From assembly GCA_025054615.1 (NCBI GenBank), contig JANWZO010000015.1:1-61752 (forward strand): a stretch of DNA of 61,752 nucleotides, written 5' to 3'. This document shows, piece by piece, positions 36,870-50,444 of this stretch. Made by a program: the position numbers and the translations under genes. This DNA comes from Kiritimatiellia bacterium. GTDB lineage: Bacteria; Verrucomicrobiota; Kiritimatiellia; CAIVKH01. The notes under the pieces are model-generated. The model worked only from the letters and a program-made list of their open reading frames with translations. It did not search any database and was not told the origin of the DNA. Positions within the stretch are counted from its first letter, which is position 1; every line of letters starts with the position of its first letter.

Positions 36870-39722
36870 TCAAAATCCGTTCATTAGAATCAGGGATCGA
36901 ATGCCGGCCACCTGGATCGTTGCAGTCCGACCGCCCTCCAGTGGCGCATAGCCGGGCAATCCGTTCAGGTTCACGGTCTGGTGGTCGCCGATGACCCGCC
37001 AGCGGCCCGGCGGCAGGGGCACATCGAAAGCAACCGAGCGGTCCGAACTATTTAAGAGAACGACAAATGAGCGCCCCGGGTGTTGGCCTTTCGCGTTGAC
37101 GATATAGCCCAGAGCGCGCGGCTCAGATGGATCGATCCACGTGTAGTAACCCGGCGGCGGGGTCTGGGTCACCCGAAAGGCCCGACCCGCCTCGCTTTGC
37201 CGCATGGCGATCAAATCCCGATAGTAGCGCATCGCTTCGGCTGCGAGCGGCCGTTCGCGATCATCCCACCGGATCGCGTTGACGGCGTCTCCCTTGTCGA
37301 AGGTATTGCTAATACCGTACTTGCTCCGCAGGAATTCCTGGCCCTCGTTGACCATCGGGATCCCGAGCGAAGTGAACAAGACCGTGGCGGCCAATTTGTT
37401 CATTTGGACTTCATAGGACTGCACGTATTTGCCGTTACGGTCCGGCCGAAGGCTCAACTCGTCCACGAGGGCCATGTCGTCGTGGCTCTCGACGTAGTTG
37501 ATGGATTGGAGCGGGTTGGAAGACCAGATCTCCGTGGAACCGGTGATCGTCTTCTTGAGCCAGTCCCGATCGGCGCGGCCGCGCACGAAATCTTTCGCGG
37601 CATACCGGAAATCGTTGTTCCACGCGGACCACGTGGTTCCGCGAAGTTTGGCTTTATTTTCCCCGCGTATGGACCACGGTTCCGAAATCAGAATGACATC
37701 CGGCTTGATCGCGCGTGCCTCGCGCTCGATCTGCCGCATCGTTTCCATGTCGATGAGCTCCGCGAGGTCAAATCGAAATCCGTCCACCTTGTGTTCGCGG
37801 ATCCAGTACAGGATGTTGTCGACGATGAAGCGCCGCATCATCGGCGCCTCGGTTCGCACGTCATTCCCGCACGCGCTGAAATTGATAAACCGATAATCGG
37901 GGGTGAGACGGAAAAAATATTTTTTATCGATCAGCGCAAAGAGATTGGGGCCACCGACATGGTTGTAGACGACATCCTTGATTACGGCAAAGCCGGCACG
38001 GTGCAAGCCGTCGACGAAGCGCTTAAATTCGTAGTATTGGGATCCACGCAACGGCTTGCGAGCGTAGGACGCCTCGGGTGCGAAATAATGGACGGTGTTA
38101 TAACCCCAACTGTAATCCCGCGTACCGTTTTCAAACTCGCAGGTGGGCAGGAATTCGATGGCATTAAATCCCATGGCCTTGATGTGGTCCAGGCCGGTTC
38201 CGGTCCCGATGGTTGCCAATACACCCTCATAGGTCCCCCGCAGATTCGGCGGCACGCCCGATGAAGGATGGATCGTCAAATCGCGGACGTGTGCCTCATA
38301 AATCACCAGGTCTTCCGGCCGCGGCGTGGTCCAGTTTGTCGCGGTCCAGCCCCCGAACCATTCATTGGTCGCCTCGCGGTCGATCACAATCGAGTTGTTC
38401 ATCGAATGGGCGGATGCAAAACAGTAGGGATCGCTGACAAACGCCTGAGCGTTAAACGCCTCTCCGTCGCCCTGAGGACCATCCACGTTGAACGAGTAAT
38501 ATTTGCCGACATCTAGCCCCAGGAGGCTGATTTCCCAAACGCCGTCCTCCTCGTCCTTGATCATGGGATAGCGTTCCGCCGGCTCCAGCCGGCGATAGGC
38601 CGGCTGACGCTGCTCGTACTCCGGCGTCGTGAAAATGTTCAGGGTCACGGCCGTCGCACGAGGTGCGAACAACCGGTAGGTCGTGATGCCCCGCTTTTTG
38701 TCGAGATGGGCGCCGAGCGCGCGCGACGTGACGATGGAATCGAGCAGTTTGCCGACCGACACGACCTGCCTGATGCGGCGGTCCGCAATCCCGTCCAACA
38801 CGACGTTGTAGGTCGTCGATAAGTTCAAAGGCTCGGCCGTAAAGAGCTTCAGCGTTGTCACGCCGGGATCGGCGAAATCGACCTTCAAATTGATGTTCCC
38901 GTTCGGGTCGCGCACGCGATTCGGTGCGCGGGCCGGCGGAGTCGTCCACCGTTCGCGATCGACCACAAACCGAAAGAGCGGAAACCCATCGCCCTCGGGA
39001 TATGGCAAGCCCTCCACCGGCACGGAAACCTCCCAAACGCCATCGTCGTCGTCGTCCTCTAGCCGCCACACCCCATTTCGCCCGCCATCGGGATTCCACC
39101 AATTGAAGTTTCCGGCCACCGTCACCATCGCCGTCGGGGCGAGCGCAAGACCATAGGCCCGCTCGTCAAAAACGAACTTTAGGGTAGGTCCGGCGATCAG
39201 ATAACCGCGTTCGAGTTTGTCCGGGTTACCGGGAATCACTCGCATCCCGGTAAGCGGGACCGGCGGCTCTAGCGCCGCGCGTACGCCCCGAGTGTCCGCC
39301 AGGGGACGCTTCAGATACACGGTGATTTCATTCCGGCCGTCCAGCCGCGCGGCGAGCACCACTTCCGGCGGGCGCTCCAGCAGCAAATCGTCGTTCACTA
39401 CAAGGGTGCGGTTTTCGCCCGGCTCCCATTCGCCGTCGACGATAAATTTGAATTCGTACCGGCCCGGCTTCTCGATGGGGAGCGATCGAATGTCGAGGAC
39501 AAAGAGCGACCGGTTCGTGCGAACCATCGGAAAAGCGCGGGTCCACTGGTTCCACGTCCCTGACACCTCGACTTTCGAGTTTGTCGGCGCGTCGTACCGA
39601 AGCCAGCGTGTTGCTTTGGCGCCCGGAATCATGCGGGTCGATGCGCTGAGGGGCGGTTCGTCCGCCAACAAAAAACCGGCAAAACCTATTACGAAAGTCA
39701 GCACAACCCCAGCGATACGCAT
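36870..39722 (-). CDS. Secreted pullulanase-like GH13 enzyme with N-terminal glucan-binding domains
   Basis: About 950 residues with a signal peptide (MRIAGVVLTFVIGFAGFLLA). The N-terminal half holds two glycogen-binding-like sandwich modules (VSGTWNQWTRAFP and VTVAGNFNWWNPDG) and a CBM48-type module (GITTYRLFAPRATAVTLNIF). The catalytic GH13 barrel has YEAHVRDLT, DVVYNHVG, VDGFRFDLAELID (nucleophile Asp), LISEPWS (acid/base Glu) and YVESHDDMALVD (third acid). The YNTVHYFAPE block is typical of type I pullulanases and debranching enzymes. It should hydrolyse alpha-1,6 bonds of pullulan or branched alpha-glucans outside the cytoplasmic membrane. The start at 39722 is chosen for the signal peptide. 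Confidence 0.92.
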   Translation of the reverse strand: MRIAGVVLTFVIGFAGFLLADEPPLSASTRMIPGAKATRWLRYDAPTNSKVEVSGTWNQWTRAFPMVRTNRSLFVLDIRSLPIEKPGRYEFKFIVDGEWEPGENRTLVVNDDLLLERPPEVVLAARLDGRNEITVYLKRPLADTRGVRAALEPPVPLTGMRVIPGNPDKLERGYLIAGPTLKFVFDERAYGLALAPTAMVTVAGNFNWWNPDGGRNGVWRLEDDDDDGVWEVSVPVEGLPYPEGDGFPLFRFVVDRERWTTPPARAPNRVRDPNGNINLKVDFADPGVTTLKLFTAEPLNLSTTYNVVLDGIADRRIRQVVSVGKLLDSIVTSRALGAHLDKKRGITTYRLFAPRATAVTLNIFTTPEYEQRQPAYRRLEPAERYPMIKDEEDGVWEISLLGLDVGKYYSFNVDGPQGDGEAFNAQAFVSDPYCFASAHSMNNSIVIDREATNEWFGGWTATNWTTPRPEDLVIYEAHVRDLTIHPSSGVPPNLRGTYEGVLATIGTGTGLDHIKAMGFNAIEFLPTCEFENGTRDYSWGYNTVHYFAPEASYARKPLRGSQYYEFKRFVDGLHRAGFAVIKDVVYNHVGGPNLFALIDKKYFFRLTPDYRFINFSACGNDVRTEAPMMRRFIVDNILYWIREHKVDGFRFDLAELIDMETMRQIEREARAIKPDVILISEPWSIRGENKAKLRGTTWSAWNNDFRYAAKDFVRGRADRDWLKKTITGSTEIWSSNPLQSINYVESHDDMALVDELSLRPDRNGKYVQSYEVQMNKLAATVLFTSLGIPMVNEGQEFLRSKYGISNTFDKGDAVNAIRWDDRERPLAAEAMRYYRDLIAMRQSEAGRAFRVTQTPPPGYYTWIDPSEPRALGYIVNAKGQHPGRSFVVLLNSSDRSVAFDVPLPPGRWRVIGDHQTVNLNGLPGYAPLEGGRTATIQVAGIRSLILMNGF

Positions 39723-39818
39723 CGGCGGAATCCTCGGATTCAATACGGGGCATTCAATCACGCCACTTTGGACCCTTCAAGCGGATGAGTCGGGCGCCGA
39801 AGCGAAGATCCAGCGGAT

Positions 39819-40941: not shown

Positions 40942-41016
40942 TGGAGCGGGAGATGGGATTTGAACCCACGACATTCACCTTGGCAAGGTGACGCTCTACC
41001 ACTGAGCTACTCCCGC
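40942..41016 (-). tRNA. tRNA-Gly (anticodon GCC)
   Basis: A complete cloverleaf can be folded on the minus strand. The acceptor stem pairs GCGGGAG with CTCCCGC, the D-stem is GCTC/GAGC, and the anticodon arm is TCACC-TTGCCAA-GGTGA with anticodon GCC. The T-arm is GTGGG-TTCAAAT-CCCAT. The 3' CCA is encoded (revcomp of 40942-40944). Confidence 0.96.
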
Positions 41017-41830
41017 AACGCCATGAACAATCGTCTGTCGTCCGGCTCGATAAACTATCTGTATGTAAGCCATGTGTCGCGAGATGTCAATGGTGGCCGT
41101 TGAGATGGAGGCCGAACCGGCCGTGGCCGCGATGGCGGTGTCTCTTGGACCTCGAGCGAACCGCCTTACTGGGGCCAGAACACAAAACTTACCGCCAAAG
41201 CAGATCCGTGCTATCTCGCCTCAAAGGTACCGCCGTCTTCCTCGACCCTCGAAGCGGCTCGTGTCGGAGTGAAGGATGATCTTTATATCGTGGGCGAGCA
41301 CTTAATCCTGACTGCAGATTCTTCGCCTGAATCAAAACATCGGAATCGGGCAGATTGGTTGAATCTCGATCGCTTCAATCGCGTTGAGGGTGCGGCGTAC
41401 GTCTTTTTAGAGGAATGCCCGTTTCTCGCAGCGTGCGCTTCATTCGCCTCGCCCTATCGAAGTAATGCGCGCGAAGTGACCAAGAGAATAATGTCATTAG
41501 TGCCGACAAATACCGGCGTCAGAAACTTCGCGCCGGCAGACGACAGCGTGTGTTTCCCGTGGCGACGTTGCGAAAGAATTCAGTCCGGACCCTAGCCCTC
41601 GCCGAAGCCGCACGAGGAAACGGAACCATCGAAATCACAACGAGTAGCGCGAAAAACGGTGGACAGATACTGCCACTCTCCGCAGGCTCATCCTTCGGGT
41701 TAGCGCACTCGAAAGCCGGAGATTTGGCGTCTGAGTAATTTTTTACGCGAATCTAATACCGTTGAGGGTCCAGCTTGGGTATAGTTTGAAATAAAATATT
41801 GGCATATCAACTTTATCGAGGGGGAGGAGC
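41017..41830. other. Long intergenic stretch, no convincing gene
   Basis: A stretch of 814 bp between tRNA-Gly and the secreted peptidase-like gene. Short frames exist (for example 41269-41595 plus) but have no recognisable domain, no RBS and no composition bias of coding DNA. The last 80 bp are AT-rich and presumably hold the promoter of the next gene. It may contain decayed genes. Confidence 0.5.
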
Positions 41831-43270
41831 ATGAAAGTTTTCATTGTCGTGTGCGCCGTTCTTGGCGTGTTTTCTTTTCCCACTCGCGCAAGTGTTGTGG
41901 TTGTTACCAATGTCGTGACGAATGGTACGTTGGCCACGACCTACGGCGCGTCGATCATGGATCGCGACGTCGCGCGGTGGATTGAGGAATCGATACCCAC
42001 CAACTCCAAAAAATTGATCATTTTGACGCAGTGCTTCGGCGGCAACATGGTGGACAAGTTTGCAACGATCTCGAACACCACGGTGATTAGCGCGACGAGT
42101 CCGGGACAAAAATCCAAGTACGGTTACTACGACAAGGGAGCGAGCATGGCGTTGAAGCCGGGGCCCAGTCGCACGGCGCAGGACGTGCACAACGAGGGTT
42201 TTGCCAGCAAGCATACGAACGAGACTCCGATTATAGGAGGAACACTATCGCCGACGAATTTTTCGTTGGACCCTGTTTCGCCGACGGGGACGGTGAAAAG
42301 TCGCCATATCGTGTTTTATGCCGGTGAGCCCGACAGCAGACCGGAACGCGATTTTGATCAATACCTTCGCATCAAAAAGTCGTTTGAAACGGAAACGAAC
42401 ACAACGCTCGAGTCCGCCGGCGGCCAATTGTCCATATCGAACATTCTGGATTTTGTCGGCAACGCAGCGTCGCTTCGCCGAGTGATTACCAATGCGGCCG
42501 CTGCGATCACGAATTCGCCAACGCCGGACGACGAACAGTTCGTTTTCTATGTCACCGACCATGGCGATTATCATGTGACGGCGGACGTGCGCACAAATCT
42601 GCCTCCGATGTCGACACTCACCATCAGCAATTTTCCATCGTTCAGATCGAATGCGATCACCCCAAAAGCTATCCTGGAAGACGCCCACGCTGTTCCCAGT
42701 TTTTCCATCTTCATTCCATTCACGAATGTGGTTCATCCCGCGAATGAGCCCCTTTCGCACTATGTTCCGTATTTCAGTTCTTTCGGTTTTCAACTGCAGG
42801 TGTTTGACGCGACGAATGACGTGACGCCGCTGAACACGTTCAATTTTTCCTTGGAACAAGCCTGGGAACTCAACGGCAGCGGTTTTATCGGCGATTTTCC
42901 CGGCGAAGGCATCGTGCGTCGATTCACGATGGATCCGAGCGTCTTTGTCAGCAACTACTTCGACCGCACGCTGACATTTCGACTGACCAGTTTGGTTTCG
43001 GGCACGTGGATGATTCAGCGCATCAGCCAGGATAGCGGCGAACTCTCCAAATTGTTTGAGCCGCTGGTAGAGAGCATAGAACGAGTTTTTAGCGGCTTTG
43101 TAGTGCGATGGTCGGGATACCGTCCGGTCCGGCTCGAATTCACACCGAATCTTGTGCCACCGACGGCGTGGATGCCGCTCACGTTTTATCAAGCCGGCGG
43201 CGGCGTCACGCATTCATTCTATTTCGAACCTACGAATGATCTAGGGTTTATCCGGGCCGCAGAGCAGTAG
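41831..43270 (+). CDS. Secreted clan-CD (caspase/legumain-like) peptidase-like protein with permuted motif order
   Basis: A 479-residue protein with a strong RBS (GGGGGAGGAG just before ATG) and a signal peptide (about 1-20, ending PTRA). It has LIILTQCFGGNMVDKF (Cys about 68) followed by TVISATSPGQKS, which resembles the catalytic-Cys strand of C13/caspase-like enzymes (QC-GG, then strand and an S/E-rich loop). Much later comes DEQFVFYVTDHGDYH (His about 244), the expected 'FxYxTDHG' His strand. In canonical enzymes the His motif precedes the Cys motif, so the order here is reversed. The C-terminal 60 residues (W...SFYFEPTNDLGFIRAA) look like the small beta-domain common at the end of secreted PVC proteins. 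Activity and substrate are unknown. Composition is AT-richer than the genome average. Confidence 0.6.
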   Translation: MKVFIVVCAVLGVFSFPTRASVVVVTNVVTNGTLATTYGASIMDRDVARWIEESIPTNSKKLIILTQCFGGNMVDKFATISNTTVISATSPGQKSKYGYYDKGASMALKPGPSRTAQDVHNEGFASKHTNETPIIGGTLSPTNFSLDPVSPTGTVKSRHIVFYAGEPDSRPERDFDQYLRIKKSFETETNTTLESAGGQLSISNILDFVGNAASLRRVITNAAAAITNSPTPDDEQFVFYVTDHGDYHVTADVRTNLPPMSTLTISNFPSFRSNAITPKAILEDAHAVPSFSIFIPFTNVVHPANEPLSHYVPYFSSFGFQLQVFDATNDVTPLNTFNFSLEQAWELNGSGFIGDFPGEGIVRRFTMDPSVFVSNYFDRTLTFRLTSLVSGTWMIQRISQDSGELSKLFEPLVESIERVFSGFVVRWSGYRPVRLEFTPNLVPPTAWMPLTFYQAGGGVTHSFYFEPTNDLGFIRAAEQ

Positions 43271-44279
43271 GGTCTTCGCGTCTGACGCCTCACATAGCGT
43301 TGTCATGACTCTTCGAAGCGGCAGCAATAAGGGATCTGGCGCTGGAGGTGTACCCCAAAGGCTACGCGGGGAGGCCGAAATCGGCGGTCGTGCATCTAGC
43401 CCGAACCGATGGCGTAGAGGTCGATACCGGGACTCTGCGGCGGTGAGTTCCCTAGAAATTTCAACAACCTTTAGCCGGGCCTGCTGTTCCGCTTTTAGAG
43501 TCTCTTCCTCGATGTATAGCCGGGCTCGGTGAGCCCGTTGGTTCGAGCTCGAAATGTCCGGGGCCAACGACCCTGCTTACAGCGTATTTTTCGCCCACCC
43601 GTAGTTCGGCTCGGTGAGCCCGAAAAATTCCTGGTGCCAACGCCGCCGGCTACAGGAAATGCTGTCGGTCTTTAGCCAAAGGCCTCTGGGTCTGTCGGCA
43701 CAAGCGGGCGCAACTTCGGGCGAGGCGAAAGCGTCAGGCCCGCGTTGACATAGATCTTCAAGGCGAAGGGCGACTACGCCTCACAAACGAGCGATGAAAA
43801 CGTCGGGCTTGAGGGTGAGGATGGCGAACATGCTGCAGGCAGAGAGCGGGTCGAGCGGGAATGCATGTAGTGGCGGCGCGGATAGCCGAACGGTCTACGT
43901 CTTCAGCAGCGCCTCCACCCCTTATCTGGGCGCAGCGGAAAGTTAGATCCCTTTCTTCTCCGCCTGAAAGGGGAGCGCCCTCAATTTCCCGCGCCAAGCC
44001 GTTGGTCACGCCGCTCGACGAACCACGCGATCAGAGGCTTATGAGAGAAGTTGAAGGCGGCGGCGGGTCGGGGACGGCGGACCTGCGCCGCCAACGCGAA
44101 GTCTCCTTGGCTAGCAAGCGCCGGGGGATTAACGCCGGATGTCTGTCGTCGGGCACCGAGCAAATAATTGCGCTTGGTGAATTCGCTGGGCCGGCGGCTT
44201 ATCCCCCGGAGCGAATGGTCCCGATCGCGCTTGTTTTCGCGCGAGCCGTGTCGCCGTCGGTTGCAACTGATTACTTTAG
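43271..44279. other. Gene-poor stretch with REP-like repeats
   Basis: About 1 kb without a supported gene. Open frames on both strands (such as 43861-44409 plus) lack RBS and domains. It contains the paired hairpin repeats at 43517-43656. It may hold decayed mobile or accessory genes. Confidence 0.5.
43517..43656. repeat. Two REP-like hairpin units
   Basis: The core GGCTCGGTGAGCCCG occurs at 43523-43537 and 43608-43622. In copy 1 CGGGCTC pairs with GAGCCCG around a GGT loop. In copy 2 TTCGG-CTC pairs with GAG-CCCGAA with one bulge, right after GTAG (43601-43604). Each unit is followed by a GCCAACG...CTTACA/CTACA block (43563 and 43636), so unit 2 is bounded by GTAG and CTAC. This resembles REP/REPIN elements. 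Confidence 0.6.
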
Positions 44280-44516
44280 TTATTTCAAAGCGTCCAACGA
44301 CGCGCCGAAATTGATGTGGTACGGTACGCCGTCGAGCACAAGCGCAGGCACGGATTTGACGCCGGCCGCTTCGGCCTCTCGTATTCGGGCCTTGTTTTCC
44401 CCGAGGTGAACGATTTGGACGTCGAATCGCTGCGGGTCAAGCGCGGCGGCCACATTACGTTCGGCGGCCACGCAAACCGGGCACCCGGCATGATAGAATA
44501 TTGCTTTCTTCTTCAT
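44280..44516 (-). CDS. Small glutaredoxin/thioredoxin-like protein (CPVC)
   Basis: A 78-residue single-domain protein beginning KKKAIFYHAGCPVCVAAERNV, with a CxxC redox site (CPVC, about residues 12-15) after the first strand. It ends with SVPALVLDGVPYHINFG, where the cis-Pro loop of the thioredoxin fold (SVPA) is visible. No signal peptide, so cytoplasmic. The RBS is AAAGGAG, 6-7 nt before ATG. It is divergently transcribed from an HxlR-type regulator with a 129-bp shared control region, suggesting redox-responsive regulation. Confidence 0.82.
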   Translation of the reverse strand: MKKKAIFYHAGCPVCVAAERNVAAALDPQRFDVQIVHLGENKARIREAEAAGVKSVPALVLDGVPYHINFGASLDALK

Positions 44517-44560
44517 GAGGGACTCCTTTCATAGACGACTCTTATTTCTGCTTGAGTCTC

Positions 44561-44596
44561 ACCGTACACGGTTGAGCATTGGGTGCCAGAGGGCAC
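44561..44596. promoter_or_regulatory. Two inverted repeats in the glutaredoxin/HxlR divergent promoter region
   Basis: ACCGT-AC-ACGGT lies at 44561-44572 and GTGCC-AGAG-GGCAC at 44583-44596. Both sit in the 129-bp space between the divergent genes, where an HxlR-type repressor would be expected to bind. A weak sigma70-like pair for the plus strand (TTGAGC at 44573, then CAAAAT 18 bp on) overlaps them. Assignment is by position and symmetry only. Confidence 0.4.
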
Positions 44597-44645
44597 AAAA
44601 TGGTGACCGGTTGACGGCTCAGATTGCTGCGTCTAGGTAAGAAGT

Positions 44646-44978
44646 ATGAAACGGAAATTCCTTCCGCTCTCGGAGCGATCCGCCTATCGCAGCCTCGAGG
44701 ATGTGGTGGGCTGCAAGTGGTCGGCAGGAGTAATCGCGGCGTTGGCGGATGGCGTGCGGAGACCGGGCGCGTTGGAACGGTACATTCCGGGTATATCGAA
44801 AAAAATCCTCAACGAACGGTTGCGCAAATTGCTAAATTACGGATTGATTGTGCGCACCGAATATCCCGAGCGTGTCCGCCACGTCGAGTATTCCCTGACA
44901 CCGATGGGCCGCAAAGTCGCTCGGATCATCCGACAATTGAAAGAATTAGATCGTTCACTCACCGCGGCTCGCGATTGA
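44646..44978 (+). CDS. HxlR-family winged-helix transcriptional regulator
   Basis: A 110-residue HxlR protein (PF01638). Its DNA-binding core shows VVGCKWSAGVIAALADGVRR, RYIPGISKKILNERLRKL, and the wing YPERVRHVEYSLTPMGRKV. A single Cys in the N-terminal helix (VVGCKWS) sits where redox-sensing HxlR proteins such as YodB/HypR carry their reactive Cys. It probably controls itself and the divergent glutaredoxin-like gene. The ATG at 44646 lies inside the same divergent region. Confidence 0.9.
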   Translation: MKRKFLPLSERSAYRSLEDVVGCKWSAGVIAALADGVRRPGALERYIPGISKKILNERLRKLLNYGLIVRTEYPERVRHVEYSLTPMGRKVARIIRQLKELDRSLTAARD

Positions 44979-45009
44979 AGCTGTAGTCCGATTAATCAAG
45001 CTGATTGTT
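44979..45009. other. Short spacer after the HxlR gene
   Basis: Nothing recognised; AT-richer spacer leading into the transposase remnant. Confidence 0.3.
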
Positions 45010-45340
45010 ATCGCCGCGTTGTAGAGACTATCCCCAAACCTGTTTTTGGGGAAGCAGAGGGCATGTGAGATCAAGCAGACTTTGGTAGTGGTCACCGCCA
45101 CTCGTAAGCCTTGCAGATCGACCCACACCCCGATGTTCACGCCTTTTCCCATTTTTCTCGCCTCGTTGCCATCGCCAACCCTCGTGCTTTGACGAACGTG
45201 CCGTCGATGAAACCCTCATAGAGCTTGAAGCCCTTCGCCATTTCACACAGCGACCTGCCTGGCGCTGGACAGGATTCAGAAGATTCCTCGGAGAACTCTT
45301 CGTTTATCTGCGGCAGGCCGTCCGCCCCGCGGGTTGAGAG
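45010..45340 (-). pseudogene. Broken IS5-family transposase remnant
   Basis: Pieces of one transposase are spread over three frames on the minus strand. The N-terminal block PRGGRPAADKRRVLRGIF is followed by a stop in place of Trp and then ILSSARQ, matching the IS5 'RGRPxxDNRRVLxGILWxLRTG' region. Next, in another frame, is GFIDGTFVKARG, matching the 'hDGT/SFVRAK' block with the first catalytic Asp. Then, after another shift, GKGVNIGVWVDLQGLRVAVT matches 'RGKGxKIxxxxDxxGLPxAV'. About 60 residues between the first and second blocks and the C-terminal third, with the other catalytic acids, are missing. No terminal inverted repeats were identified. It cannot encode an active enzyme. Confidence 0.75.
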
Positions 45341-45899
45341 ATGCGTTGGAAATATAGCGGCACCGCCAATCGAATCGAGCATCAAGAGGTGCGAGCAAGC
45401 CGTCATGCGCTATCGATCTAATTCTATTGCTCAAAAGAATCGGGATTGCCTCACGACGGTTGCTCCATCATTGTCGGACGAGGTGGAACTCGTTCCTCCA
45501 CAATGTGGGCAAATTCGAGAGCGCGGATTTACCCGCGCCGTTTGTGCAGGGCGCGGTTTCAACGGCGCCGGCGCGTGCGGTCGGCGTGATACCCGACTCT
45601 GCAAGTAGGGACGTCGTGGAAGGCCCGGTTACACACGGGCCGGATACGGTCGGCGAGGAAACCGACCCTCCAGATGGGAATGACTCGGAGTGGAACCTGT
45701 CTTTCCAAAATAGTGAGCGGGGGGAATTTGCCCCGACAGTTTATGTGAAATCGTTGCGCGAGATAACTACGGCGTCGGGAGCGCCTCCGATCTCCCGCCA
45801 ATCGGAAAAAGGGCCATTTCAAATGAGTCAAAAAGAGGGAACATTTCCAAATGAGTTTTGACGTGTTCGCGGTCCGAGTGACAACTACGGCCGATTCAA
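45341..45899. other. Intergenic stretch between IS remnant and tRNA-Ser
   Basis: No supported gene. Contains the three-hairpin repeat region at 45580-45667. Open frames here are short, lack RBS and do not resemble known proteins. Confidence 0.5.
45580..45667. repeat. Two copies of a 25-bp hairpin repeat flanking a third hairpin
   Basis: A unit beginning GGTCGGCG and ending CCGAC(C/T)CT-CA occurs at about 45579 and 45648. In each, GTCGG pairs with CCGAC (45580-45584/45593-45597; 45649-45653/45662-45666). Between them GGCCCG (45622-45627) pairs with CGGGCC (45636-45641). This is a REP-like arrangement in the accessory segment. Confidence 0.6.
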
Positions 45900-45991
45900 T
45901 GGCGGAGAGGGTGGGATTCGAACCCACGTTCCCCCTTTCGGAGGAAACACGCTCTCCAGGCGTGCCCAATCAACCACTCTGGCACCTCTCC
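45900..45991 (-). tRNA. tRNA-Ser (anticodon GGA)
   Basis: A class II tRNA folds on the minus strand. The acceptor stem pairs GGAGAGG with CCTCTCC, the anticodon arm is CACGCCT-GGA-GAGCGTG, and there is a long variable arm (TTTCCTCCGAAAGGGGGAA). The T-arm is GTGGGTTCGAATCCCAC, followed by discriminator G and an encoded CCA (revcomp of 45900-45902). Confidence 0.96.
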
Positions 45992-46141: not shown

Positions 46142-47986
46142 TTAAGTAGGCAACGGCAATTCCGGGCCGGGCACCGATCCGCTTTCGATTAGAGCAATCA
46201 TCCCGAGCAGCCCGCCCCAGTGGTAGAACCGGTCGCTCCACTCGTAGGGGCAGCCCCACCCATCGATTCCGCTGTAATTCTCGTGCACGTGGCCGTCGCG
46301 CCGCCACTCCCGCAGAAACAATTCTTTCGATTTGGCCGCCAGCTCCGCGGCCGCCGCCCTAAGACCCGCGCGGCGCAAACCCAGGTATACAAGGAAATTC
46401 ATCGGCGGCCAGATGCGACCCCGCCAATAGTGCTGCTCCGGAAACGCCGGATCATCGCGAGAAATCGAGGGCAGGACCCAGTCGCCCCAAAATTCGTTGG
46501 GGTTCATCAAGTGCTCCGCCACCATCCGCGTGGCCTGGTCCGCAGTAGCCGCGTCCGCCAGCAGGGGGTAGAACAGCGTCGGCGACAGGCGATGGCTCCA
46601 CGCGCCGCTGTCGGTATGCCGATTCATGAACAGGCCGCGCTCGTCGTTCCAAAGCAACTGCAGGGCAGCCCGCCATGTCGCCGCGCGAGCGCGAAGCTCC
46701 TGCTCCTCGTTCGCGCGCCCCAACACCCGCGCCAGGTCGGCAAGGTCCTCGCAATCCCGGATGTACAGACTGTTCAGGCCGACATCGTGGAGGTTCATGC
46801 AGTGGGTCGATGGGTCGACCGGGACCTCGTCATACATCGGCGAATTATCCAGGCCGGATTCAAGCGCGCAGCCGTAGGTCTGGCCCACGCCTTTGGTTTC
46901 CCATTCGTTGTCGAGAATCGGGTCGTAGGGGTTCGACCCCCATGCCAGCAACTCACCCACGCAGCGGGCGCGAAGCCACCATCGGTTCCAAACTAAGAGG
47001 GAGTCGAACACCTCCTCCAGAAATTGGCGATCGCGCGTCCATCGGTAGACCTCGCGCACCATCATGGACCCGACCGGCGGTTGCGAGCGGTCCCGCGTTT
47101 TGAACCCGTGGCCGTTCGACGTGTTGGGCACAAACCCCTGCGGCAACATTTCGCGCAGAATTTCCCGCGAGTTCGCGATGGCCAGATCCGGCTCGTCGAT
47201 GGCGGCCATGTAGGCGGCAAAGAATGTATCCCAGCAAAAGAGCACCCATCCGCCGTTGTATTCATTCCAAAGCCGGCTCACCGGACTGATCACTCGCCTA
47301 CCGTTCGGATCATAAATGGTGTTCCATGCAAGGCAGGCGCTGAGCGCCGCGTGCGTCTCGGCTTCGGGGCCGAACCGTCGGGACCGCTCATCCAACGCGG
47401 CCCGCGCCCGGTTGAGCAGGCTGCAGATTTCATCGACGGGGCGCCATCGGCCGGTGGAGAGTCCCACGGGCTGTTCCAACGCAATCGCGAGATAGGGAGC
47501 CTGGGCGGTCAATTGCGCCTCCTCCACGGGTTCCCCGCCGACGGCGAAAACATTCGTGGACCCGTCGGGCCAAACCGCATCGAGCCGCGCGCCGTTTCGG
47601 CGAACACTGCCAGGCCGGTTCCAAAGAAAGGCGCCCTCTGCAACCAGGACGGCGGGTTTGCGATGGTTCTGAAAGGGGGTTGCCAGGGCGATCCAGTCGC
47701 CATCCACTGCGGCGGTTTGCACAAGGATTTCGAGTCCCTTCCAAAGAATTCGTAATTCCGTGTAGGCGCCATCGTAGGACCGAGGTCCGGGCCGGACAAC
47801 CTCACGGTCGGCTTCTTTTCGGCCAATTAGAGCTTCACGCAGGTACATCCCCGAACGGTACTCCTTGATGCCGATGTTCACGGAGAAGCCGCAGGGGAGA
47901 AGGACGTGGGATAACACGCTGTGCGTATTCCACGTGTTCCACCCTTCGCCGAAACGAGAACTTCGAGCGGGAGCAATCGAATTCAC
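46142..47986 (-). CDS. GH63/trehalase-like (alpha/alpha)6 glycoside hydrolase, intracellular
   Basis: About 614 residues without a signal peptide. The N-terminal sandwich domain begins GEGWNTWNTHSVLSHVLLP. The (alpha/alpha)6-barrel part has WNEYNGGWVLFCWDTFFAAYMAAI, split here as YNGGWVLFCWDTFFAAY with an expected catalytic Asp in CWDT. Further on are LREMLPQGFVPNTSNGHG, GLDNSPMYDEV, QHYWRGRIWPPMNFLVYLGL and HVHENYSGIDGWGC, where the last region carries the second carboxylate. This matches GH63-type and mannosylglycerate-hydrolase-like enzymes. A GTG at 47986 is the likely start, 20 bp after the GH94 gene. With GH94 upstream it probably trims short glucosides or mannosides in the cytoplasm; specificity unknown. 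Confidence 0.83.
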   Translation of the reverse strand: MNSIAPARSSRFGEGWNTWNTHSVLSHVLLPCGFSVNIGIKEYRSGMYLREALIGRKEADREVVRPGPRSYDGAYTELRILWKGLEILVQTAAVDGDWIALATPFQNHRKPAVLVAEGAFLWNRPGSVRRNGARLDAVWPDGSTNVFAVGGEPVEEAQLTAQAPYLAIALEQPVGLSTGRWRPVDEICSLLNRARAALDERSRRFGPEAETHAALSACLAWNTIYDPNGRRVISPVSRLWNEYNGGWVLFCWDTFFAAYMAAIDEPDLAIANSREILREMLPQGFVPNTSNGHGFKTRDRSQPPVGSMMVREVYRWTRDRQFLEEVFDSLLVWNRWWLRARCVGELLAWGSNPYDPILDNEWETKGVGQTYGCALESGLDNSPMYDEVPVDPSTHCMNLHDVGLNSLYIRDCEDLADLARVLGRANEEQELRARAATWRAALQLLWNDERGLFMNRHTDSGAWSHRLSPTLFYPLLADAATADQATRMVAEHLMNPNEFWGDWVLPSISRDDPAFPEQHYWRGRIWPPMNFLVYLGLRRAGLRAAAAELAAKSKELFLREWRRDGHVHENYSGIDGWGCPYEWSDRFYHWGGLLGMIALIESGSVPGPELPLPT

Positions 47987-48005
47987 GGTGTGAGGCCTTT
48001 TAGGT

Positions 48006-50444
48006 TCATAGGCCGGTTTGCGGGAGAATGACGGCGATCTGCGCCGACGGCCGCCGGAACGAAGTTGCCGGAACAAGGGGCCCGGCAAGGCGTTCGCCGT
48101 TTACCGTTATGCCGGGCTCCTCCCCGGCATGCGCGCGGCGAGCCTCGATCTCGACCCGGCAGCCTCGAAACTTCCGCGTGCACGAAAATCCGGCCCACTC
48201 CGCCGGCAACACCGGCTCGATCCGCAATCCCCCCAGCTCGGGCCGAATGCCGAGCAGATACTGGGTTGCCGCGATGTCCATCCAGGCGGCCGTGCCGGTG
48301 ACATGCGGGATGTTTGCCCAACCGAACCGCGGATTTTCGGGGCCGATGATGCTGCTCGCCCACGCGTACGGCTCCGCCTGGTAGCGGTCGAGCCCGGCGC
48401 GGCGCAGGGCCAGGTGGGGCACAAGCTGGCGGAAGTACTGCCACGCGCGTTCTGCGCGGCCGAGAAGGGCCTCCGCAATGATCGCCCATGTGTTGGCGTG
48501 GCAGAAGATCGCCCCGTTCTCGCCGCACCCGAGCGAGTAGCCGACAAACGCATCCATGTCCTCCGGATAAGTTGGGAAACTCGGATGCAGTTTTTTGATC
48601 CCGCGCTCGGTGTTCAGGATTTGATACACAGCGTCCATCGCGCGGATTTGCCTGTCGCGGTCGCCCACATTCGCCAGGACGGACCAGCTTTGGGAATTCA
48701 GCCAGATTTTGCCGTACCGACACGTGCGCGAGCCGACGGGCGCACCGTCGTCGTCGAACGCGCGGATCCACCACTCGCCATCCCAGCAGCGAGTGGAAAT
48801 GGCGTGAAGCTGCCCGTCGAGCGCGGAGGAAAGCCGGCGTTCCGTGTCGGATTCTCCGCGGGCGCGGGCCAGTTCGAGCATCTGGCGGAGGACGTACACA
48901 TACTGCATCGCGGCGAATACCGATTCGCCCCTGCCCTTCCGCGCAAAGCGGCCGATGCAGTCGTTCCAATCGCTGTGGAGGGTCAGCGGGATGCCGTGCG
49001 CGCCGAGGTGTCCCGCGGTGAAATCGAGCGCAGCGAGCAAATGCGCCCAGACTGTGGCTTCGGGCCCGCGATCAAGCCCGTTTTCGGCCAGGTACGGCAC
49101 CTTTTCGTCGAGAAGTCCAAGATCGCCGGTCTCTGAGACAAGCGCGTAAGCCAGCATGGGGAGCCAGAGGTGGTCATCGCTGTGGACGGTGCGCCACGGC
49201 GCCTGCTTGTCCTCCGGAAAATACGTGTGCACCACATGCCCGTCGGCGAACTGGTGCCGCAGCAGCCGGAAAAATTCCTCGCGCGCCCAATCGGGCCGCC
49301 GGTACGCAATCGCGAGCATGTCCTGCGCGGTGTCTCGAAACCCATAGCCGCGAAGGCCCGAAGCGGCCTGGCTGAACGAGCGCGAGTAGCGGCCGGTATG
49401 CACGCAGTTGACCGGCGACCACGTGCGAATTTGCCGCTCGATATCCGGATCCGGCAGCCGGCAATCAAAGGCCGAAAAGTGGTCCGCCCACCACCCGTCC
49501 AGGTGACGGCGCTGTGCGTCGATCCAACCCGGCTCGCGCGCGCGGGAGAGGATTTCGGGGAGGGCGCGCAACGCCGCAGAGTAATCCCCCATCGCGCGCG
49601 GCACCAGGCCGAGGAAAAAGCTGACCCGCTCCGATGCGCCCGGTGCCACACGGACCGGAACGTGGAGGGCGCCGCAGGGATCGCCGCACCAGATCTGCTC
49701 TCCGCCGCAACGACCCAGCTCTACGGCCAGGGGATCTCGCTCCGACCGGTACGGCCCCAGGAAGGCCTGCCGGTCGCCCGCGCTTCCGGCGACGGCCCGG
49801 TTCGAGGCAAAAAACACGAGAGGGAGGTCAGCCAGTCGAGGGTGCGACTGGTGATGATACAAATAAAGCTGCGCAGCCGCCGCATCATCCCAGCGGGTTT
49901 TCAGCATGTTGCGAATGTAGTATCCCCACTGATACTCCTGCAGCCATTCGAGCAGGCCAAATTCGACGTAGGCAAACAAATCCACCGACGCATCACGACT
50001 ACCGAGATTTGAGAGCTGTGCATCCCAGACCAAGATGTCCTCTTCAGGCGCGATGAAGAGGGAAAGCCCTACGGCGAGATCCCCCCGGCGCCCAAAAAAC
50101 CGGCTCGAACCTGGCGTGTGCTCCGCTCGCCACTCATCCAGCGGCGTCTTGGTCGGCATCCATGTCGGCGACCAGACGGTCCCCGCGGACTCGCGCACGT
50201 ACAGGTAGAAGCCCGGGCTGTCCACCGGCGACATCCACGAGCGGTAGCGGGTGATGCGGAAATTGATCGGACTTTTCCACCAGAGGCATCCGCCGCCCGC
50301 ATGCGACACAAACGCGTGCAGGTTCCCGTTTGAAAGGTAGTTGATCCACGGCGCCGGAAGGTCCGGCCGGCGGATCACGACGGCCCGCCGGGGGTCGTCA
50401 AATGCATATACGTCGTCTTCGACTCGTTGGGGCTGGGACATCAT
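48006..50444 (-). CDS. GH94 glycoside phosphorylase (cellobiose/chitobiose phosphorylase-like)
   Basis: An 812-residue cytoplasmic enzyme with the GH94 layout: N-terminal beta-sandwich, helical linker, (alpha/alpha)6 barrel and C-terminal jelly roll. Diagnostic blocks are GYGFRDTAQDM (about 367-376), HSDDHLWLP (about 421-429) and LHSDWNDCIGRF with the catalytic-type Asp (about 492-495). FCHANTWAIIAEALLGRAERAW and PYAWASSIIGP follow. It phosphorolyses a beta-linked disaccharide to a sugar 1-phosphate; which disaccharide cannot be determined. Palindrome cluster C covers the region just upstream of its start and nearly reaches the RBS, so this gene is the best candidate for regulation through that motif. 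Confidence 0.9.
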   Translation of the reverse strand: MMSQPQRVEDDVYAFDDPRRAVVIRRPDLPAPWINYLSNGNLHAFVSHAGGGCLWWKSPINFRITRYRSWMSPVDSPGFYLYVRESAGTVWSPTWMPTKTPLDEWRAEHTPGSSRFFGRRGDLAVGLSLFIAPEEDILVWDAQLSNLGSRDASVDLFAYVEFGLLEWLQEYQWGYYIRNMLKTRWDDAAAAQLYLYHHQSHPRLADLPLVFFASNRAVAGSAGDRQAFLGPYRSERDPLAVELGRCGGEQIWCGDPCGALHVPVRVAPGASERVSFFLGLVPRAMGDYSAALRALPEILSRAREPGWIDAQRRHLDGWWADHFSAFDCRLPDPDIERQIRTWSPVNCVHTGRYSRSFSQAASGLRGYGFRDTAQDMLAIAYRRPDWAREEFFRLLRHQFADGHVVHTYFPEDKQAPWRTVHSDDHLWLPMLAYALVSETGDLGLLDEKVPYLAENGLDRGPEATVWAHLLAALDFTAGHLGAHGIPLTLHSDWNDCIGRFARKGRGESVFAAMQYVYVLRQMLELARARGESDTERRLSSALDGQLHAISTRCWDGEWWIRAFDDDGAPVGSRTCRYGKIWLNSQSWSVLANVGDRDRQIRAMDAVYQILNTERGIKKLHPSFPTYPEDMDAFVGYSLGCGENGAIFCHANTWAIIAEALLGRAERAWQYFRQLVPHLALRRAGLDRYQAEPYAWASSIIGPENPRFGWANIPHVTGTAAWMDIAATQYLLGIRPELGGLRIEPVLPAEWAGFSCTRKFRGCRVEIEARRAHAGEEPGITVNGERLAGPLVPATSFRRPSAQIAVILPQTGL

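Follow-up and report, generated by a model that had tools for sequence, protein, structure and literature searches.

The catalytic domain of a predicted secreted cysteine peptidase from a Kiritimatiellia bacterium very likely has a naturally circularly permuted caspase/haemoglobinase fold (clan CD, legumain C13-like), in which the catalytic Cys precedes the catalytic His. The domain and its relatives probably represent the first natural circularly permuted clan CD family with Cys before His, whose members would be active as secreted peptidases and occur patchily over several bacterial phyla. Clan CD includes caspases, legumain, separase and gingipains and is described partly by a His-then-Cys dyad. 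Its alpha/beta fold has parallel strands in the sheet order 2-1-3-4-5, and its peptidases cleave with a specific P1 residue. A MEROPS-based review describes the clan by a conserved His-Cys dyad or triad (PMC12445089), and another clan review gives a common topology (PMC4357240). No earlier report of a natural clan CD permutant with Cys before His was found in a non-exhaustive search of literature mostly from outside subscription journals.

Gene, protein layout and genomic setting

The gene is a 479-residue open reading frame at positions 41831-43270 on the forward strand of the window, which is the whole 61,752-nucleotide stretch of DNA that was analysed. It starts with ATG, has no internal stops and has a homologue in genome G005 that is 50% identical over its full length. 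A Shine-Dalgarno-like purine stretch, GGGGGAGGAG, abuts the start codon (41820-41829, forward strand; read directly and judged by eye). Residues 1-20 (41831-41890) form a putative signal peptide, recognized by eye as a hydrophobic stretch followed by small residues; a hydrophobic N-terminal stretch also opens the aligned homologues.

The catalytic domain follows in two halves. Residues 28-131 (41912-42223) make up the Cys half, delimited by a partial Pfam C13 match, hhalign and AlphaFold2 (AF2) elements, and contain a hairpin, a helix, the Cys strand, the next strand and further helices. The motif LTQCFGGNMV lies at residues 65-74, with Cys68 (42032-42034) as the presumed nucleophile; this residue is invariant in 12/12 aligned sequences and aligns with the canonical catalytic Cys. 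A linker of ~23 residues (132-154; 42224-42292), placed by the alignment and by short AF2 elements, carries an invariant Pro133 and Gly153. The His half (residues 155-248; 42293-42574), delimited by hhalign and AF2 elements, runs from strand 1 (HIVFYAG) through a helix, strand 2 and another helix to strand 3, which ends in DHG. The motif FVFYVTDHGDYH occupies residues 237-248 and includes His244 (42560-42562), the presumed general base of the Asp-His-Gly motif, which is likewise invariant (12/12) and aligned with the canonical DHG. Judged from their sequence matches, the Cys half corresponds to the C-terminal part of an ordinary C13-like domain and the His half to its N-terminal part. The remaining C-terminal region (residues 262-479; 42614-43267) is beta-rich and has no Pfam match; an SQD(S/T)G motif at residues 399-403 is kept in the closest members.

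Two hallmarks of clan CD are present: the catalytic His belongs to an H-G motif that follows strand 3 (D243-H244-G245), and small residues come after the catalytic Cys, which closes strand 4 (Cys68-x-Gly-Gly). A further hallmark, His before Cys, is absent. Re-reading of the DNA returned the frame and both motifs where the initial annotation had placed them, with Cys68 ahead of His244 as it had described; the same order holds in every family member. Its ribosome binding site and probable signal peptide were also recognized (both by eye), as was its likely accessory segment.

That segment is a GC-poor, gene-poor stretch of ~5 kb (40942-45991) bounded by tRNA-Gly (40942-41016, reverse strand) and tRNA-Ser (45900-45991, reverse strand). 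GC content in the segment with the peptidase gene is ~0.53 compared with 0.60-0.65. It looks like an accessory segment that carries the peptidase gene and an HxlR-type regulator, a helix-turn-helix protein encoded at 44646-44978 on the forward strand (Pfam PF01638, E 2.6e-21); little else between the two tRNAs appears to be coding. Genes for an alpha-amylase/CBM48 protein (36870-39761, reverse strand) and an MGH1-like/trehalase-like glycoside hydrolase (46142-48088, reverse strand) flank it. No conserved neighbour emerged among the family members whose surroundings were inspected.

Domain order in profile and structure comparisons

The ordinary domain would run strand 1, helix, strand 2, helix, strand 3 (His), helix, strand 4 (Cys) and strand 5. 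A permuted chain would begin just past the end of the His loop, pass through the Cys half and the linker, which would connect the old C-terminus of the fold with its old N-terminus, and then enter the His half, which would leave the new chain ends between the strands that carry His and Cys. Profile comparisons agree with this arrangement. When aligned with hhalign to four ordinary-order proteins, the native domain profile matches with a probability of 60% over 17 columns around DHG only, compared with 95% over 80 columns for the rotated profile, in which DHG and Cys are both in register. The separate halves align to template positions 18-160 (His half) and 105-254 (Cys half), and a duplicated query aligns end to end across the junction, DHG on DHG and QC on QC. 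In a rotation scan against 13 ordinary domains, the native score of 35 rises to a peak of 72, and start points that keep the His half ahead of the Cys half score ~58-72 with up to 207 colinear columns. A colinear control family behaves in the opposite way, scoring 112 in its native order and 70 when cut between the motifs, and block shuffles of the permuted profile give a mean of 8 and a maximum of 34. A compact normal-order subset matches the permuted profile weakly (at most 21.5 among the scores listed, at rotated start points).

Individual sequences give the same picture. An HMM of ordinary domains matches all 12 permuted members as two swapped pieces in their native order and, after rotation, as one colinear piece with a higher score (12/12). 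Searched against 240 genomes of the class, the rotated profile matches family members as two swapped pieces, and its leading outsiders (E = 6.5e-4, 1.6e-3 and 0.028) are normal C13-like proteins with a single match across both motifs. The Pfam C13 profile recognizes only the Cys half of the native protein (residues 42-101 on profile positions 132-192 of 258); in rotated order the match spans both motifs, with a modest gain. Scores for PF01650 are 12.2 bits for the full protein, 14.5 for the domain alone and 15.9 for the rotated domain, all below the gathering cut-off of 22.8. NCBIfam has zero matches to the protein. Sequence searches of the PDB found no clan CD chain; their matches were mainly designed Pizza propellers, picked up through a chance DHG motif.

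Structure prediction gives one confident alpha/beta domain (AF2 with 10 alignment rows, the input alignments being of 10-12 rows only; pLDDT 88.2, pTM 0.88). Its elements run strand, helix, Cys strand, helix, strand, helices, strand, helix, strand, helix and DHG strand; in model numbering (add 20 for the protein), the His half comprises strands at 137-144, 171-177 and 215-221 and helices at 154-164 and 192-207. This predicted order fits a rotated caspase/haemoglobinase fold. Among the 50 Foldseek matches listed for the catalytic model, only legumains/asparaginyl endopeptidases reach a probability of at least 0.8 (up to 0.98). These matches cover 102-152 columns, about half of the domain, with TM-scores near 0.35 and weak E-values (0.05). 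Because Foldseek alignments follow the order of the sequence, only part of a permuted domain can match at a time; half-domain coverage is thus expected of a permutation, although it is not proof of one. The full-length model (pLDDT 79.6, pTM 0.78) has a beta-rich C-terminal part, and beta-rich proteins dominate its Foldseek matches, with no clan CD match among those listed, which is why the catalytic domain was modelled alone.

The initial annotation had proposed an apparent circular permutation of a C13/C14-type fold, and the comparisons made support the proposal. Rotation replaces a pair of partial matches in swapped order by a single colinear one but weakens the match of a normal family, the halves find their counterparts in ordinary C13-like domains, the predicted fold has the rotated strand-helix order with a Foldseek link to legumain, and the catalytic residues are conserved.

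Family members and ordinary-order relatives

Eleven homologues with 29-51% identity come from Kiritimatiellota/Verrucomicrobiota, Planctomycetota, Armatimonadota and Zixibacteria, and the Cys motif precedes the DHG motif in all of them. The same motif order in relatives from several phyla argues for a real circular permutant rather than chance. Cys68, Asp243, His244 and Gly245 are invariant in the 12-row alignment, as is Cys68-x-Gly-Gly; several glycines and a YAG-PD motif after the would-be strand 1 are likewise invariant. Relatives within the bacterial family and class of the window turned up in searches of whole genomes; the best two are 50% and 46% identical and the rest more distant. A search with an alignment query over one genome per species gave 11 loci, some of which the whole-genome searches also found, with titles that name Verrucomicrobia, Lentisphaerae, Kiritimatiellae, Armatimonadia, Planctomycetota/Phycisphaerae/Anaerohalosphaeraceae and Zixibacteria; three planctomycete loci among them are mutually close. 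A single-sequence query against the same contig collection gave zero matches, whereas the alignment query found these loci. No family member was found in the viral contigs scanned. One candidate (L013, genome G492) sits within an unrelated gene region and was dropped as a chance match.

The family is patchy. It occurs in 5 of the 288 genomes sampled from the window's class, in 1 of 294 from the phylum of one planctomycete member and in 1 of 171 from the phylum of the Armatimonadia member; 132 genomes from the phylum to which a Zixibacteria member belongs hold 2 members. A single copy was found in every one of the eight member genomes checked, and all members come from metagenome-assembled genomes (MAGs) as far as titles show. 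Domain fusions are varied. In two Kiritimatiellae loci (L015 and L016), open frames of more than 2000 residues carry the permuted domain at their N-terminal end, and in L015 it is fused to RHS repeats. In a Zixibacteria MAG (L024, 3417-6284), the domain stands behind CrtC/Lipocalin_9 domains and is followed by dockerin-like repeats, which were recognized by eye there and in L023. A weak PDZ match is fused to the domain in L022.

Ordinary-order relatives exist in the same class. A Pfam Peptidase_C13 search of the class found proteins above the gathering score, the clearest of which have His before Cys; the same search found no C13 match in the genome of the window. Six ordinary-order secreted C13-like proteins of the class (L025, L026, L028, L035, L041 and L064) are colinear with legumain. 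In L035, for example, NDQLFVYLTDHGG comes first and FTMEQCYGGGFLDDLNQSNRLIATAA afterwards. The surroundings of the motifs are very alike in the two groups, with EQCYGGGFLDDL..NR.IATAA in ordinary-order proteins against TQCFGGNMVDKF..NTTVISAT in the permuted family, and likewise DQLFVYLTDHGG against EQFVFYVTDHGD. What differs is the order, with His before Cys in ordinary proteins and Cys before His in the permuted family. One further protein (L074) was rejected as a permuted member because its match is confined to the Cys half and it is a relative with the ordinary order. It has NHG and then FTECYGG, ends in a dockerin-like C-terminus, belongs to the same phylum as two permuted members and is possibly related to the unpermuted ancestor.

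Function, alternatives and known rearrangements

The protein is probably secreted and active as a peptidase. In the folded domain, two neighbouring parallel strands would bring Cys68 and His244 together at their ends, and the pair would cleave peptide bonds in the manner usual for a Cys/His dyad. The probable signal peptide, the invariant dyad and the fusions to RHS repeats, CrtC/lipocalin-like, weak PDZ and dockerin-like domains point to an extracellular or envelope peptidase, for which the extracellular processing or degradation of proteins is the most likely role; the fused RHS chains may also process themselves. Thr stands two residues ahead of the Cys, a position that is Glu or Asp in many ordinary C13-like relatives, and a legumain-type preference for Asn/Asp should therefore not be taken for granted. 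Family C13 (legumain, asparaginyl endopeptidase; PF01650) shares with the protein a strand ending in DHG/HG, a strand ending in the Cys motif and a predicted alpha/beta domain; it differs in that the permuted family has the Cys half first, a sub-gathering Pfam score and Thr rather than an acidic residue two before the Cys. Given this residue order and a score below the Pfam cut-off, the protein is better kept out of family C13, though it very probably works like a member.

The leading alternative accepts the permuted fold and sees a binding or structural pseudo-enzyme that keeps the dyad by descent. Peptidase activity in the family is read from sequence, and fusions to RHS repeats, lipocalin-like and PDZ domains make a binding role thinkable; however, invariance of Cys68, Asp243, His244 and Gly245 across phyla, down to 29% identity, is unexpected if catalysis were lost, which makes this alternative unlikely. 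A segment swap, in which an oligomer would pair the Cys half of one chain with the His half of another, is compatible with the sequence and with a linker of such short length between the halves, but AF2 folds a single chain into one confident domain (pTM 0.88) and we regard a swap as improbable.

That the CxGG and DHG loops are chance motifs in two unrelated domains is very improbable. Each motif is short on its own and DHG also occurs in unrelated proteins such as the Pizza designs, yet each half separately matches the corresponding C13-like half, rotation gives a colinear match in every one of the 12 members and the rotated profile finds C13-like proteins genome-wide. An assembly or annotation artefact might be suspected because the members appear to be MAG-derived, but assemblies made independently, in several projects and from several phyla, show the identical order in frames open without stops, which leaves this explanation barely credible. 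A natural permutation with catalysis retained is the preferred reading.

Rearrangements of related folds are known. In type III metacaspases, the catalytic His and Cys both lie within an intact p20, with His before Cys. These proteins show that domains of the caspase superfamily can be rearranged in nature: p20 and p10 are putatively swapped (PMC4357240), with the p10-like domain at the N-terminus (PMC5756287), whereas in the permuted family the catalytic motifs themselves are swapped. Engineered circularly permuted caspases (cpCasp2 and others) are active permutants of the same fold; they are man-made, with large and small subunits exchanged by a cut after the Cys, and His still precedes Cys (PMC7760212). 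The new chain ends of the permuted family, between the His and Cys strands, are unlike those of either group. Permuted papain-like peptidases also represent natural circular permutation of a cysteine peptidase fold, but that fold is papain-like and unrelated to clan CD (PMC10318531).

A natural reverse-order family would break the His-then-Cys rule of clan CD and would show that the fold tolerates new ends inside its catalytic core, between the two catalytic strands. The permuted order would also explain why family searches miss these proteins. Permutants made by nature could serve as starting material for engineering peptidases or peptide ligases, and the ordinary-order relatives in the same class would allow study of the permutation event itself.
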